Position numbers and translations under genes: made by a program. Of a stretch of DNA of 39,487 bases, positions 18,561 through 23,892 are shown piece by piece. Each line of letters starts with the position of its first letter. Position 1 is the first letter of the stretch. This stretch comes from Candidatus Methylomirabilota bacterium (GTDB taxonomy: Bacteria; Methylomirabilota; Methylomirabilia; Rokubacteriales; CSP1-6): NCBI GenBank assembly GCA_035936835.1, contig DASYVT010000021.1, positions 1-39,487 on the forward strand, given 5' to 3'. The notes beneath the pieces are model-generated. The model was not told the origin of the DNA, made no database searches, and saw only the letters and a program-made list of their open reading frames with translations.

Positions 18561-19916
18561 CTACTTGCCGGTGACGGCCTTGACGGCTTCCTGGGTGACC
18601 GAGACCATCCGGTCGAGCTGCTCCTCGGTGATGACCAGCGCCGGACAGAAGAAGATGTTCTCCATCCGCGCGCGCGTGATCACGCCGCGCTTGCTCATTT
18701 CCTGCATGAGCCGCGCGCCGATCTTTTGGTCCGCGCCGTAAGACTTCTTCGTCGCCTTGTCCTCGACCAGCTCGACGGCCGCCAGCAGCCCCTTGCCCGA
18801 ACGGATGTCGCCGACGTTCGGATGACTGTCGAAAGCCGCGTGCAGGGCCTTGTGCAGGCGCATGCCGAGCGCGGCCGAGCGCTCCGCGAGCCGCTCGCGC
18901 TCCATGATCTCCACGTTCTTGAGGCCGACGGCGCAGCAGGTCGGGTGCCCCGAGTAGGTGTAGGCGTGCATCCACTTGTCCTCGGGCTTGACCGAGTCCA
19001 TGGCCTCCTTGACGTCCTTGGAGACCATGATGCCGCCGAGCGGGAGATAGCCCGAGGACACGCCCTTGGCGAAGGACATGATGTCGGGCAGCACGTTCCA
19101 GTGCGTCATCGCGAACCAGTGACCTGTTCGGCAAAAACCGGTGATTACTTCGTCGGCGATGAAGAGGACCTGGTGCTTGTCGCACACCTTGCGCACCAGC
19201 GGGAAGTAGTCGTCGCTCGGATAGATGACGCCGCCGCCGCCGTGGATGGGCTCGGCGATGAAGGCCGCCACCGTGTCGGCGCCTTCGCGCAGGATCGCCT
19301 CCTCGAGCAGGCGCGCCGCGGTCTGCCCCGCCGTCTCGCCAGGCTTGGCGCCCTCCTGGCGGTACGGGTAGCAGGTCGGGATGTGGACGAAGCCCGGCAC
19401 CCGGGGCTCGAACATCTTCCAGTAGGGCGGCATGCCGGTGGCGCTCATCGCCTGGAGCGTCACGCCGTGGTAGGAGTTGAAGCGCGAGATCACCTTGACC
19501 TTGTCGGGCTTGCCCTTGGCCTTCCAGTAGAAGCGCGCCGTCTTGAACGCTGATTCATTCGACTCGGCCCCGCCGCACGTGAAGAAGACCCCCTGCATGT
19601 TCGGGTACGAGATCGAGATGAGCTTCTCCGCGAGCTGCACCGCCGGGATGTTCGACGAGCCCGCGTAGGCCGAGAAGTAGGCCAGCTCGCTCATCTGCGC
19701 CGCGGCGGCCTTCGCCAGCTCCTCTCGGCCGTGGCCGACGTTGGTGTTCCAGAGCCCCGCCAGGCCGTCGATGTACTCTCGCCCCTGGATGTCGGTGATC
19801 GTGGCGCCGCGGCCCTTGACGTAGACCATGGGCTCGAGGTGATCGCTCGGGTGATGCAGCGGGTGGATCAGGTGATCCTGGTCGGACTTGATCAGCTCTG
19901 CGGCCTGCACGGCCAT
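18561..19916 (-). CDS. class III (omega-type) PLP aminotransferase
   Basis: 451 aa, with GAGGAGG on the reverse strand before the ATG at 19916. Fold type I PLP enzyme: FFTCGGAESNESAFKTAR, SYHGVTLQAMSATG, IADEVITGFCRTG with the PLP-contacting Asp, and the Schiff-base lysine Lys 284 in FAKGVSSGY. The overall sequence resembles pyruvate-dependent aminotransferases acting on beta-alanine, taurine, putrescine or other terminal amines. Such enzymes convert an amine to an aldehyde, so the SDR immediately downstream could act on the product; this is inference. The exact amine cannot be read from the sequence. Confidence 0.93.
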   Translation of the reverse strand: MAVQAAELIKSDQDHLIHPLHHPSDHLEPMVYVKGRGATITDIQGREYIDGLAGLWNTNVGHGREELAKAAAAQMSELAYFSAYAGSSNIPAVQLAEKLISISYPNMQGVFFTCGGAESNESAFKTARFYWKAKGKPDKVKVISRFNSYHGVTLQAMSATGMPPYWKMFEPRVPGFVHIPTCYPYRQEGAKPGETAGQTAARLLEEAILREGADTVAAFIAEPIHGGGGVIYPSDDYFPLVRKVCDKHQVLFIADEVITGFCRTGHWFAMTHWNVLPDIMSFAKGVSSGYLPLGGIMVSKDVKEAMDSVKPEDKWMHAYTYSGHPTCCAVGLKNVEIMERERLAERSAALGMRLHKALHAAFDSHPNVGDIRSGKGLLAAVELVEDKATKKSYGADQKIGARLMQEMSKRGVITRARMENIFFCPALVITEEQLDRMVSVTQEAVKAVTGK

Positions 19917-19936: not shown

Positions 19937-20347
19937 TCAGCGATGATAAATGGACTGGGCGGGCAAATGCGCCCGGTAGTCGCCGCCGGGGATCGGCACG
20001 GCCTGGGAGACCGGCCCGACGTACCAGTAGATGTACGCCGTGACCTGCCTCCCTCCGGCCAACCGCACCCCAACCTCCCCGCGATGATACTGGCTGCCCT
20101 CGGCGGAGTCCAGCGCCAGCCAGAGGCCGGGGTCCTTGAGCCGGTAGACCTCGCCGCGGATCACGCCGCCTCCGTCCCGCAACGCGGCCGGGTAGCGGCC
20201 CAGATCGAAGAGGAGGCCGGCGACCTCGCCTGCGCCCACGGAGTCGGCGCGGCCCGCGAGCAGCGCGTGGAGCCGGAAGCCGCGCATGAGCGTGCCGTAC
20301 ACGAAGAGCAGAGGCTCAGCGTCCACGGAGCAGGGACTCGAAGTCAC
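19937..20347 (-). CDS. gamma-glutamylcyclotransferase-like protein (AIG2/GGCT fold)
   Basis: 136 aa from GTG 20347, or GTG 20326 if shorter. It has FVYGTLMRG at the start of the domain, the central GEVYRL, and LDSAEGSQYHRGEV with the likely catalytic Glu, then AYIYWYVG. The family cleaves gamma-glutamyl amines or peptides to 5-oxoproline. It overlaps the end of the membrane-anchored hydrolase gene by 32 bp and precedes the class III aminotransferase by 20 bp, so it is inside the operon that starts with the disulfide oxidoreductase. A link to thiol (glutathione-like) metabolism is possible. Confidence 0.88.
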   Translation of the reverse strand: MTSSPCSVDAEPLLFVYGTLMRGFRLHALLAGRADSVGAGEVAGLLFDLGRYPAALRDGGGVIRGEVYRLKDPGLWLALDSAEGSQYHRGEVGVRLAGGRQVTAYIYWYVGPVSQAVPIPGGDYRAHLPAQSIYHR

Positions 20348-21142: not shown

Positions 21143-21796
21143 CTAGACCTCCTTGGCGCTGACGGCCTGGAGCACGGCGTTGACGAAATCGCTCTCCGGG
21201 ATGGCGCCCTCGAACTCGACGCGGTCGTTGATCACGATCTTCGGTACCGCCATGACCTGGTAGCGCTGGGACAGCTCGGGGAACTCCGTCGCCTCGACGC
21301 ACTCGGACCGGACGTGCTCGGAGGCAATCGACATGTGCTGTGCCAGGCGCACGGCCCGCGGGCAGTGCGGTCAGGTGGGCGTGGCGAAGACCTTGATCAT
21401 GACGTCTTCGGTCAGGCCGGCCAGGGCCGCCTTGGTCTCGTCCTTGAGCTGCGCTTCGCCGGTCGAGACGGAAACGATGGAGTCGATCAGGTTGGAGAAC
21501 TCGTAGCCCGCCGGGGTGCCCAGGAAGCGGATGCCGTAGTCCTTAGCGCCCTCGACCGCGACGGCGGGCGTGACCGACACGCCGTAGGCCGCGGCCTCGT
21601 CCCGCTCGATGTGGGGATTCATCACCTTGACGGTGATCTTCTCGGAGAGCGCGGCGACCTCCTTGATGAGCGAGACGGTCTGGGCGTTGTTCTCGGGCCC
21701 GAGCTCGGAGGCGAAGACCGTCAGCGTCACCGGTCCGGTGAGCTTCTCGAACTCCCGCGTGACCGCCTGCTCGTCCTGCGCCGTGAGGTATCCCAT
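21143..21796 (-). CDS. candidate selenoprotein: glutaredoxin-like protein disulfide oxidoreductase with in-frame TGA at the active site
   Basis: One frame of 217 codons, interrupted only by TGA at 21373-21371 (codon 142). On either side the sequence reads VFATPT-U-PHCPRAV, where relatives have a CPxC redox motif, so TGA replaces the first active-site Cys and gives UPHC with Cys 145. Residues ~1-120 form a first thioredoxin fold that has lost its own CxxC (FASELGPENN) but keeps VTPAVAV and LGTPAGYEF; residues ~130-217 form the active fold with the cis-Pro region AVPKIVIND. This is the layout of PDO/AhpF N-terminal-like proteins, which move electrons between thiols. A SECIS-like hairpin lies 16-34 nt after the TGA. 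Ordinary gene calling would report two pieces, 21371-21796 and 21143-21352. A nonsense mutation or base error is the alternative, but its exact position makes selenocysteine more likely. Confidence 0.82.
21337..21355 (-). promoter_or_regulatory. bacterial SECIS-like hairpin after the in-frame TGA
   Basis: In the mRNA, counting from the base after UGA, GUGC (+19 to +22) pairs with GCAC (+28 to +31) around a 5-nt loop GCCUG. A C/A mismatch and two more pairs (+16/+34, +17/+33) extend the stem. The first loop base is G at +23 (position 21348). Known bacterial SECIS models ask for a short loop with G in the first two places, roughly 16-37 nt from UGA, on a stem of at least four pairs; this element meets them. 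The element is inside the coding frame, as expected for bacteria. Folding was done by eye. Confidence 0.6.
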
Positions 21797-21811: not shown

Positions 21812-23452
21812 TCACGCCCGCGGCGCGCCCCGCACGATCTCGAGCATGCGGCGGTAGCCGGATGGATCAATGCGCGCGTCGATCAGCGTCGGTCCCGGCG
21901 CGGCCTGCGCGGCGACGAGCGCGCGGGCGAAGCCCGACTCGTCCGCCGCAGTCCAGGCCGTCACGCCGAACGAGCGCGCGAGGAGCGCAAGATCGGGCCC
22001 CCCGTAGCGCATGGACGCGCCGGCGTAGCCCTTCTGCTCCTGCTTGATCTCGATGAGCGAGAGCGCCGCGTCGTTGAACACGATGACGGTGATGGGCAGG
22101 CGCAGTCGCGCGGCCGTCTCGAGCTCGGCCGCGACCATCATGAAGCCGCCGTCGCCCGTGAAGCACACCACCCGCTGCTCGGGGAAGGCGAGCTGGGCGG
22201 CGATGGCCGCCGGCAGCGCGAAGCCCATAGTCGCGAGACCGTTCGAGATCAGGAACTCCCCCGGCTCCACAGCCTGCCAGTACTCGGCGGCCTGGAACAT
22301 GTGGGCGCCGGCGTCCGTGGTCGCGATAGTCCCAGCTGGAGTCAACTCGCGGGTGATCTGGACCACCCGATGCGGCGCCAACCCCGGCACGCCGATCTCG
22401 AGCGCGCGCTGTCGCTCGCGGCGCAGTCTGTCCACCTCGACCACGTCCCAGTCGGCGTGGTGCTGGTGGAGCCGCGGCGCCAGCTCCTCGAGAATGAGGC
22501 CGAGGTCGCCCACCACCTCGAGTGCCGGGGAGAAGTAGCCCCCGCCTCCGACAGCGCTTCGCCCAGGCCCGCCAGAGGGACCCCGCACCAAGGTCAGCAC
22601 GGGGGCTGTGTAGCTCCAGCGGCGCGGGATCAGCTCGACCGTGTCGAGGCCGAATGCGATGATGAGGTCGGCGCGACCAACCACGGGCTCCTCGAGCGCG
22701 CCGCCCGTGAACACGCCCATCGCCAGCGGGTGAGGATCAGGCAGCGCGCCCTTGGCCTTGTAGGTGGTCAGGACGGGCGCGGGCAGCGCTTCGGCAAAGG
22801 CGCGCAGCCACTTCGCGTCGGCGGCGCGGCACTGAAGCCCCGCCAGGACCACGGGCCGCTTGGCTTTCTTGATCAACGCCACCGCGCTATCGAGATCGGC
22901 AGCGGCCGGCTGTGGCAGCGGCGCGGGCGTCGCCGTCGTCGCGAACGGCACGGCAGGCTGGCCCGCAACGTCCGCCGGCAGATCGATATGCACGGGGCCT
23001 CTCGGCTCCTTCATCGCGAGCTGGGCTGCATGGGCGACCCAGTGGCCGGCCGACTCCGCCGTGATGGTGAGGCTGCCTTTCACGACGGGGGCCAGGAAGG
23101 CCGCGTGGTCGAAGGCCTGGTGCGTGGCGAAGCCGAGCGCCGAGGTAGAGTGGCGGTCAGAGAGATAGATCAACGGGCTCCGATCCAGGAAGGCGTGGGC
23201 GAGGCCGGTCGCGCTGGCGCTGACGCCGGGGCCCAACGTTGACAACACCGCGCCCGGAGCGCCGCCGAGCTCGCCCGTCACGGCGGCCATGATGCACGCG
23301 GCGGACTCCTGGTGGCAGAGGACGAAGGACAAACCCTGCGCACGCGCGGCCTCGAGCAGCTCGAGGTTGGAGCCGCCGCCCGGGACACCGAAGATGCGCT
23401 GGACTCCGGCGCGGCGAAGGCCGTCGATCAGGATCTCGGCGACGGTGGGCAT
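21812..23452 (-). CDS. ThDP-dependent enzyme, acetolactate synthase-like
   Basis: 546 aa from ATG 23452, 5 bp after the MaoC gene. Three-domain ThDP decarboxylase/carboligase: the N-terminal PYR domain with the cofactor-activating Glu 49 in LCHQESAAC; a central domain with AKRPVVLAGLQCRAADA; and the C-terminal PP domain with the ThDP/Mg motif GDGGFMMVAAELETAARL (Asp 434) ending near FNDAALSLIEIKQEQ. Relatives include acetolactate synthase, benzoylformate decarboxylase and oxalyl-CoA decarboxylase. Being beside hot-dog dehydratases and an aminotransferase rather than ilv genes, it is more likely a catabolic 2-oxo-acid enzyme than the biosynthetic synthase. The substrate stays open. Confidence 0.9.
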   Translation of the reverse strand: MPTVAEILIDGLRRAGVQRIFGVPGGGSNLELLEAARAQGLSFVLCHQESAACIMAAVTGELGGAPGAVLSTLGPGVSASATGLAHAFLDRSPLIYLSDRHSTSALGFATHQAFDHAAFLAPVVKGSLTITAESAGHWVAHAAQLAMKEPRGPVHIDLPADVAGQPAVPFATTATPAPLPQPAAADLDSAVALIKKAKRPVVLAGLQCRAADAKWLRAFAEALPAPVLTTYKAKGALPDPHPLAMGVFTGGALEEPVVGRADLIIAFGLDTVELIPRRWSYTAPVLTLVRGPSGGPGRSAVGGGGYFSPALEVVGDLGLILEELAPRLHQHHADWDVVEVDRLRRERQRALEIGVPGLAPHRVVQITRELTPAGTIATTDAGAHMFQAAEYWQAVEPGEFLISNGLATMGFALPAAIAAQLAFPEQRVVCFTGDGGFMMVAAELETAARLRLPITVIVFNDAALSLIEIKQEQKGYAGASMRYGGPDLALLARSFGVTAWTAADESGFARALVAAQAAPGPTLIDARIDPSGYRRMLEIVRGAPRA

Positions 23453-23457
23453 CGGCG

Positions 23458-23892
23458 TCAGGACCGAACGGGCAGGATCACTGTCGCGGTGCCTGGGACG
23501 GTCACTTCGCCCGCGTTCTCGAGCCACAGATCGAGGTCGACGCGGCCGTCCGGGCCCTTCTTCTTGACGCGCCCGTGGGCCGCGATGGTCTCGCCGGCGA
23601 AGTTCGGCCGCCGCATCTGGAAGCCGAGCGACTTGACGAAGCCGTCGTCGCCCATCCAGTCGGTGACCACGCGGCAGAGGCAGCCGCGGATGAAGGCCGT
23701 GTTGATGAAGATGTCCTTGTGCCCGGCCTGCTGGGCGAATTCGCGGTCGTGGTGAATCGGGTAGAAGTCCTGGGTGCCCGAGACCTGGGCGACCATGCGC
23801 GTCGGCGTCAGCTCGAGCGAGAAGCCGGTCAGCTCCTCCCCTTCCTGCACGTCGTCCCAGGCCGGACTTGGCCGGCGCGCCATTGCACTCAT
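23458..23892 (-). CDS. MaoC-like hot-dog dehydratase
   Basis: 144 aa from ATG 23892, overlapping the previous stop as ATGA. A single hot-dog domain with the hydratase-2 style motif SGTQDFYPIHHDREFAQQAG, where Asp and His are the expected catalytic pair, then NTAFIRGCLCRVVTDW and MRRPNFAGETI. Such proteins hydrate or dehydrate acyl-CoA or acyl-ACP with (R) specificity. It is coupled to the FAS1-like dehydratase-domain gene, and the two probably form a heterodimer, as is usual for split MaoC pairs. Confidence 0.9.
   Translation of the reverse strand: MSAMARRPSPAWDDVQEGEELTGFSLELTPTRMVAQVSGTQDFYPIHHDREFAQQAGHKDIFINTAFIRGCLCRVVTDWMGDDGFVKSLGFQMRRPNFAGETIAAHGRVKKKGPDGRVDLDLWLENAGEVTVPGTATVILPVRS

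Follow-up and report, generated by a model that had tools for sequence, protein, structure and literature searches.

A predicted selenocysteine-containing protein disulfide oxidoreductase of the TIGR02187 family in a Rokubacteria genome

The stretch of DNA considered here, hereafter called the window, covers positions 1 to 39,487 of contig DASYVT010000021.1 (assembly GCA_035936835.1), at its full length of 39,487 nucleotides, from a Candidatus Methylomirabilota bacterium of the order Rokubacteriales; we take Rokubacteria to belong to the phylum Methylomirabilota. Its reverse strand carries a gene for a predicted protein disulfide oxidoreductase (PDO) in which an in-frame TGA codon would be read as selenocysteine (Sec) (Table 1). 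The reading frame extends over 218 codons from 21796 to 21143, its sole internal stop is the TGA at 21373-21371 (residue 142) and 75 residues lie beyond it. The original prediction, made from the letters of the window, had claimed a single reverse frame broken only by this TGA, and this reading was confirmed from ATG to TAG. By contrast with this full frame, a mechanical list of open reading frames (ORFs) of at least 80 amino acids holds only a truncated piece of 141 amino acids (21371-21796). The directly adjoining upstream gene (21812-23527) itself terminates in TGA (21814-21812), which indicates that TGA does not serve generally as a sense codon here.

We estimate at roughly 93% the probability that the read-through gene encodes one whole enzyme, a Sec-containing PDO. 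Sequence and comparison support this reading through the single frame, the fixed UGA, the Sec machinery, a constrained hairpin, the predicted fold and the loss of the N-terminal site, and we infer from them that Sec is inserted in the cell. This reading corrects the annotation of a gene that standard gene callers would get wrong and that 48 of the 57 genomes of the family have retained.

Table 1. Features of the PDO locus and its downstream neighbours in the window
Feature	Position	Strand	Basis or remark
PDO gene, TGA read as Sec, 217 residues	21143..21796	(-)	ATG 21796-21794, TAG 21145-21143; TIGR02187 and PF13192 matches
In-frame TGA, predicted Sec142, first residue of U-P-H-C	21371..21373	(-)	Direct reading and comparison
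Cys145 codon, U-P-H-C active site	21364-21362	(-)	
Codons +4 to +9 after UGA, probable bacterial SECIS (selenocysteine insertion sequence) upper stem-loop	21344..21361	(-)	Silent sites almost invariant, 34 loci
Residues 34-37, P-E-N-N, aligned to the N-terminal C-Q-Y-C of Pyrococcus PDO	21686..21697	(-)	Both cysteines lost
GGACT / AIG2-like gamma-glutamyl cyclotransferase, downstream neighbour	19937..20347	(-)	ORF cluster and Pfam; context only
Class III aminotransferase, downstream neighbour	18561..19916	(-)	Context only

The translation matches the TIGR02187 model with 250.8 bits for a cut-off of 185, residues 6-211 of 217 being aligned on positions 2-209 of 209, and the NCBIfam name of this model, PDO_seleno_TRX, already carries 'seleno'. 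Pfam Thioredoxin_3 (PF13192) is found at residues 134-209. An AlphaFold2 model built with 30 sequences (predicted local distance difference test, pLDDT, 95.2; predicted template modelling score, pTM, 0.92) predicts two fused thioredoxin folds in the product. Its closest solved folds are the Aquifex PDO 2ayt (Z 33.9, root mean square deviation 1.4 A, 216 residues), then the Pyrococcus PDO 1a8l (Z 33.0, 1.2 A, 213 residues), followed by the Aeropyrum PDO 2hls (Z 30.0) and by the AhpF N-terminal module in 5h29, 6il7, 4xvg and 1zyn (Z 27.4 to 29.7); Foldseek concurs with these matches to the PDO or AhpF-module fold.

As had been predicted, the TGA falls on the first position of the C-terminal CxxC motif, which is confirmed by alignment and by a fixed U-P-x-C column in relatives. 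Sequence alignment places U-P-H-C in the second fold and P-E-N-N in the first (residues 34-37); several other members keep one Cys in the first fold. The alignments also bear out the claim that the N-terminal CxxC has been lost, leaving the U/C pair as the sole dithiol-type site. A 2020 review describes PDOs, in the passages available, as having a CxxC in both folds (PMC7465337). Because the N-terminal CxxC is absent and the C-terminal site reads U-P-H-C, the protein is assigned to TIGR02187 rather than to the canonical PDOs with two sites.

The TGA codon recurs in most close relatives. Within the genus, the gene was present in all five genomes searched, the window's own included, with TGA in four of them and AGA in one (G002, locus L003). 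At the level of the family, a match over the TIGR02187 cut-off was obtained in 48 of the 57 genomes; exactly one in-frame TGA is present in 47 of these matches, while that of G002 lacks it. In a sample of 95 genomes of the phylum, 52 presented a TIGR02187 match at E <= 1e-30 and exactly one in-frame TGA was flagged in 51 of these 52 genes, the exception carrying AGA; the TGA column itself was read in 36 of them (L058 and L059 included), the remaining 16 being counted by the in-frame TGA flag alone. Of 35 loci read directly, 34 are distinct (L047, a copy of L004, was dropped), and in 33 of these 34 the TGA stands at this one site, within a UPHC or UPYC motif.

Mostly more distant relatives were sampled from a named collection with the search patterns TPTCP[YH]CP and VPK[VI]VIND. 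In the best 80 of at least 568 confirmed loci, together with L058 and L059, the column holds TGC or TGT in 70 of 82 loci and TGA in 12, in a sample that leans to Cys forms since the Cys codons of the pattern TPTCP[YH]CP cannot match TGA. The claim that relatives carry Cys at this position therefore stands for most distant relatives and fails for close ones, which have TGA as well. Alignment with homologues nevertheless sets Cys against TGA at one column, so that a Cys/Sec pair appears clearly at residue 142, and the TGA of related genomes occupies this fixed column and not random positions.

Such recurrence bears on a sequencing or assembly error, in which the true codon would be TGC or TGT. 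A single base separates TGA from these codons and the genomes are draft assemblies, but 51 of 52 genes, from genomes that were assembled separately, each show one in-frame TGA. All eight loci of the named collection recorded as Candidatus Rokubacteria or Rokuibacteriota also have TGA, although six of the eight encode the same protein as loci already counted and may come from the same assemblies. Since those already counted loci belong to the family of the window, this identity places the window in the Rokubacteria lineage. We regard an error of this kind as so improbable as to be negligible.

Two TGA forms lie outside the Rokubacteria clade, namely L058 (G074 C150) and L070, from a metagenome-assembled genome named Armatimonadetes. 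Another record, L060 (MGTY01000078.1, 'Elusimicrobia bacterium GWA2_69_24'), encodes a Sec-type PDO of 69% identity, which falls within the Rokubacteria clade and there groups with L041 (support 0.991); the organism name of this record is probably wrong, or else the gene was transferred.

The sequence past the TGA also evolves as a coding one. Over the 34 loci, pairwise change per site after the UGA (codons +13 to +68) amounts to 0.157, 0.130 and 0.405 at codon positions 1, 2 and 3, and before it (codons -140 to -2) to 0.226, 0.198 and 0.398. This concentration of changes at third positions indicates that the second half behaves as translated and is more constrained than the first. Many residues after the TGA are invariant in 12 aligned sequences. 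A true stop, which would leave either a pseudogene or a shortened protein of 141 residues without redox site, is thus hard to reconcile with the substitution pattern and the invariant residues, and pseudogenes would not retain a single in-frame TGA in all but one of 52 genes; the mechanical ORF does end at the TGA and G002 shows that the codon can turn into a non-Cys codon, yet we consider a true stop very unlikely.

The Sec reading is further supported by a stretch located just downstream of the UGA. For the six codons from +4 to +9 (P R A V R L), the mean relative silent entropy over the 34 loci is 0.11, versus 0.80 at the other 52 conserved four- or six-fold columns, the rest of the same gene serving as control. 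This value is the lowest of 53 windows of codons and none of 200,000 random draws was as low, a result to be taken as a ranking and not as a strict probability since the rows are related. Codon -1 (ACC) is invariant too (34/34 loci). In the window, the hairpin would consist of a stem at 21358-21354 / 21348-21344 and a loop CGUGC at 21353-21349, 17 nt after the UGA, whereas direct hairpin enumeration gave a 6-bp stem of -8.9 kcal/mol in 38 of 46 loci, six of the 46 being protein repeats.

According to the available part of a 2026 review, the bacterial SECIS model comprises a loop of 3-9 nt with a G in the first two places, a stem of 4-16 bp, a distance of 16-37 nt and a minimum free energy <= -7.5 (PMC13188914). 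The loop of the window (5 nt, G second, then U), its 5-bp stem and its 17-nt spacing fall within these limits, and the energy of the stem-loop alone falls outside. The stem hardly varies among Rokubacteria, so that covariation is unmeasurable there. Some variants were however seen: the loop is GGUCC in L055 and L068, the latter also having A-U instead of G-U at one pair of its stem, L058 forms a hairpin at this position from a different sequence, and in L070 the best hairpin is found further on (27 nt from the UGA). A consensus fold by RNAalifold of the 60 bases that start at the UGA was weak and mixed (-9.9), and individual 51-base folds were not alike between loci. Altogether, the frozen stretch is probably the upper stem-loop of a bacterial SECIS.

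The genome to which the window belongs (G000; 4.12 Mb, 99.94% complete) encodes the machinery that Sec insertion would use. All four genes sought there, selA (583.5 bits), selB (373.5 bits) and the tRNA-Sec gene selC (71.3 bits) on contig C235 and selD (347.6 bits) on contig C183, were found over the family cut-offs; the original prediction had named the absence of Sec machinery as a refutation. ARAGORN likewise named a tRNA SeC with anticodon tca. The selD gene itself (L015, G000 C183:11015-11956) contains one in-frame TGA in the context AACAGUASK and would encode a Sec-type SelD. While selB, selD and tRNA-Sec were sought in this genome only, selA was sought across the phylum sample and found in 83 of 95 genomes.

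This machinery is also relevant to the proposal that the UGA is decoded as a residue other than Sec (Trp, Gly or a near-cognate read-through), which the short hairpin of the window would favour. The complete machinery, the Cys found at this column in most distant relatives, the use of TGA as an ordinary stop next door, the silent-site constraint where a SECIS is expected and the other genes of the genome with TGA at apparent redox Cys sites all speak against it, and we hold such decoding to be very improbable.

Some observations weigh against the reading of the gene as a functional Sec-containing PDO. First and mildly, the stem of the window has 5 bp and its stem-loop, taken by itself, reaches -5.6 kcal/mol and not the published -7.5, the window and its two nearest relatives (L001-L003) having lost the outermost pair. 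Rfam SECIS_1 (RF00031) gave no match in the window's own genome, a negative that is uninformative since none of 14 control genomes matched either. A selA match was not found in six of the 52 PDO-bearing genomes (G002, G004, G022, G041, G042, G052); all six are drafts of at least 220 contigs, of which G004, G022 and G052 are rated 95 to 100% complete, and we take these missing matches as putative gaps of draft assemblies. The nearly identical gene of G002 (L003, G002 C122:15953-16600) has AGA (Arg) instead of TGA; its hairpin is identical to that of the window and 10 of the 19 AhpC-TSA matches in G002 still carry an in-frame TGA, and the AGA may represent either a recent loss or an assembly error. 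Finally, the genes beside the PDO gene in 21 regions include no recognised redox partner, and the pathway discussed below is therefore one that we infer.

In the sequences compared, Sec goes along with the loss of the first active site, an association that we regard as a lead. Among 110 distinct sequences, the first-fold CxxC is missing in 39 of 40 Sec-type rows, in which the AGA row is counted, versus 3 of 70 Cys rows; the other 67 Cys rows keep it. The 70 Cys rows include L084, L096 and L115, which have Cys at the Sec column. However, 38 of the 40 Sec-type rows, all of them lacking the N-terminal CxxC, fall into a single clade (support 0.967) that contains no Cys member, and independent support for the association is consequently thin. 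Of the two rows left, L070 branches near the Rokubacteria clade and agrees with the pattern, being Sec-type without N-terminal CxxC. On the contrary, L058, from the window's class (G074), disagrees with it: it combines Sec with a retained N-terminal CxxC and groups with a Vicinamibacteria Cys form. It is possible, though in our opinion unlikely, that the PDO of Rokubacteria, once an oxidoreductase with two sites, turned into a selenol reductase with one, the gain of Sec in the C-terminal site accompanying the loss of the N-terminal CxxC, and that it became a hub for electrons from thioredoxin reductase to many selenium-type peroxiredoxins. If true, this would constitute an electron relay with selenium on both sides.

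For the Sec-containing PDO itself, the following mechanism may be proposed. The UGA at position 142 would be decoded as Sec by SelB and tRNA-Sec, aided by the hairpin just downstream acting as SECIS. The product would be a two-domain PDO, similar to the N-terminal module of AhpF, with U142/C145 in the C-terminal fold as its only dithiol-type redox site because the N-terminal fold has no CxxC. The selenolate of U142 would attack a disulfide or an oxidised peroxiredoxin, Cys145 would resolve the mixed selenosulfide, and a thioredoxin-reductase-like flavoenzyme would re-reduce the pair with NADPH. Since only the C-terminal site is left and its nucleophile would be Sec, the protein is best read as a reductase, and most likely would work in this direction and not as an oxidase or isomerase.

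A selenoprotein as described might instead serve in oxidative folding or disulfide isomerisation, and not in the reduction of peroxiredoxins. The AhpF module, which is among the next-closest folds, is a reductase module. In the available passages on Sulfolobus, the C-terminal site of the PDO (SsPDO) is fundamental for thiol-transferase activity and its isomerase activity needs both CxxC sites (PMC7465337), of which the N-terminal one is missing in 38 of 38 rows of the Rokubacteria clade. A folding or isomerisation role hence appears rather doubtful.

The same passages describe for Sulfolobus a chain from NADPH to thioredoxin reductase, PDO and the Bcp peroxiredoxins (PMC7465337). A comparable route from thioredoxin reductase through the Sec-PDO to Sec-peroxiredoxins, with presumed partners, is put forward tentatively, at slightly less than even odds. 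The genome encodes two enzymes similar to thioredoxin reductase (C174, C182), of which one scores over the cut-off and the other, more distant, does not reach it. Of its 23 AhpC-TSA matches, 13 carry one in-frame TGA, distributed on contigs C138, C70, C199 (three), C122, C150 (two), C47, C31, C8, C50 and C139 of G000 (loci L148, L149, L153-L155, L157 and L159-L164, none being assigned for C139). In the 12 matches that were read, the TGA presumably stands at the catalytic Cys position, as judged by motifs such as TPTU, RWUPYC and TWUPTC. The genome thus seems to encode a large selenoproteome: its about a dozen further Sec-type-looking genes agree with the 63 selenoproteins predicted for a Methylomirabilota genome, as given in a part of the 2026 review (PMC13188914).

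Downstream of the PDO gene, the GGACT cyclotransferase is conserved in 20 of 21 regions and so is the class III aminotransferase (20/21; absent in L183, from G074). By one tally GGACT is listed in 16 of the 21, an overlapping neighbouring hydrolase being listed instead in four regions, window included. These conserved neighbours do not suggest a redox role and have no obvious functional link with the PDO.

Soil and groundwater are the habitats from which Rokubacteria are usually described. The word 'groundwater' also occurs in some record titles of the loci of the named collection. PDOs are found only in thermophiles, according to a passage of the 2020 review (PMC7465337). As for the literature joining Rokubacteria or Methylomirabilota with selenoproteins, no title among the matches listed concerned this gene, which is no proof of absence, and a term search in the available part of the deep-Sep paper did not find Methylomirabil, Rokubacteria, AhpF, glutaredoxin or TIGR02187.

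Several known systems resemble the enzyme of the window. The PDOs of Pyrococcus furiosus (1a8l) and Aquifex (2ayt, 2ywm) are homologous over the whole length and also consist of two thioredoxin folds; phmmer gives 1a8l an E value of 8.6e-43. The Pyrococcus enzyme, however, has one motif per domain, CQYC and CPYC, whereas the protein of the window has lost the N-terminal pair and would have Sec in place of the first C-terminal Cys. The N-terminal module of AhpF (1zyn, 1hyu, 5h29, 6il7) shares the same double fold (Z 23.7 to 29.7) and has one working dithiol, in the second fold. Unlike AhpF, the 217-residue frame of the window is without the flavoprotein part and would have Sec for the first Cys, with an identity of 22 to 28%. 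Bacterial Sec glutaredoxins and thioredoxins are single-domain proteins. They belong to other families, but have the same UxxC motif, as indicated in a part of the 2026 review (PMC13188914), and presumably the same chemistry.

The closest known system is the TIGR02187 family itself, whose Sec form is already published, so that the gene of the window is a further member and not a new enzyme type. In the part available of a 2006 survey, the Sec form appears as 'Homolog of AhpF, amino-terminal domain', and the two members given there bear the names of Carboxydothermus and Symbiobacterium (PMC1794560). Similarly, the accessible parts of two reviews of 2022 and 2026 list a 'Homolog of AhpF N-terminal domain (Grx-like domain protein)', TIGR02187, with UxxC (PMC9312934, PMC13188914), and that of 2026 places this family under 'predicted with high confidence' (PMC13188914). 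The protein of the window scores over the cut-off of the same family model and would bear the same UxxC motif. The window nevertheless belongs to another bacterial lineage than the published Sec members, one where practically all genes of the family are of the Sec form (51 of 52); a lineage is thereby added in which this form of TIGR02187 is practically fixed.
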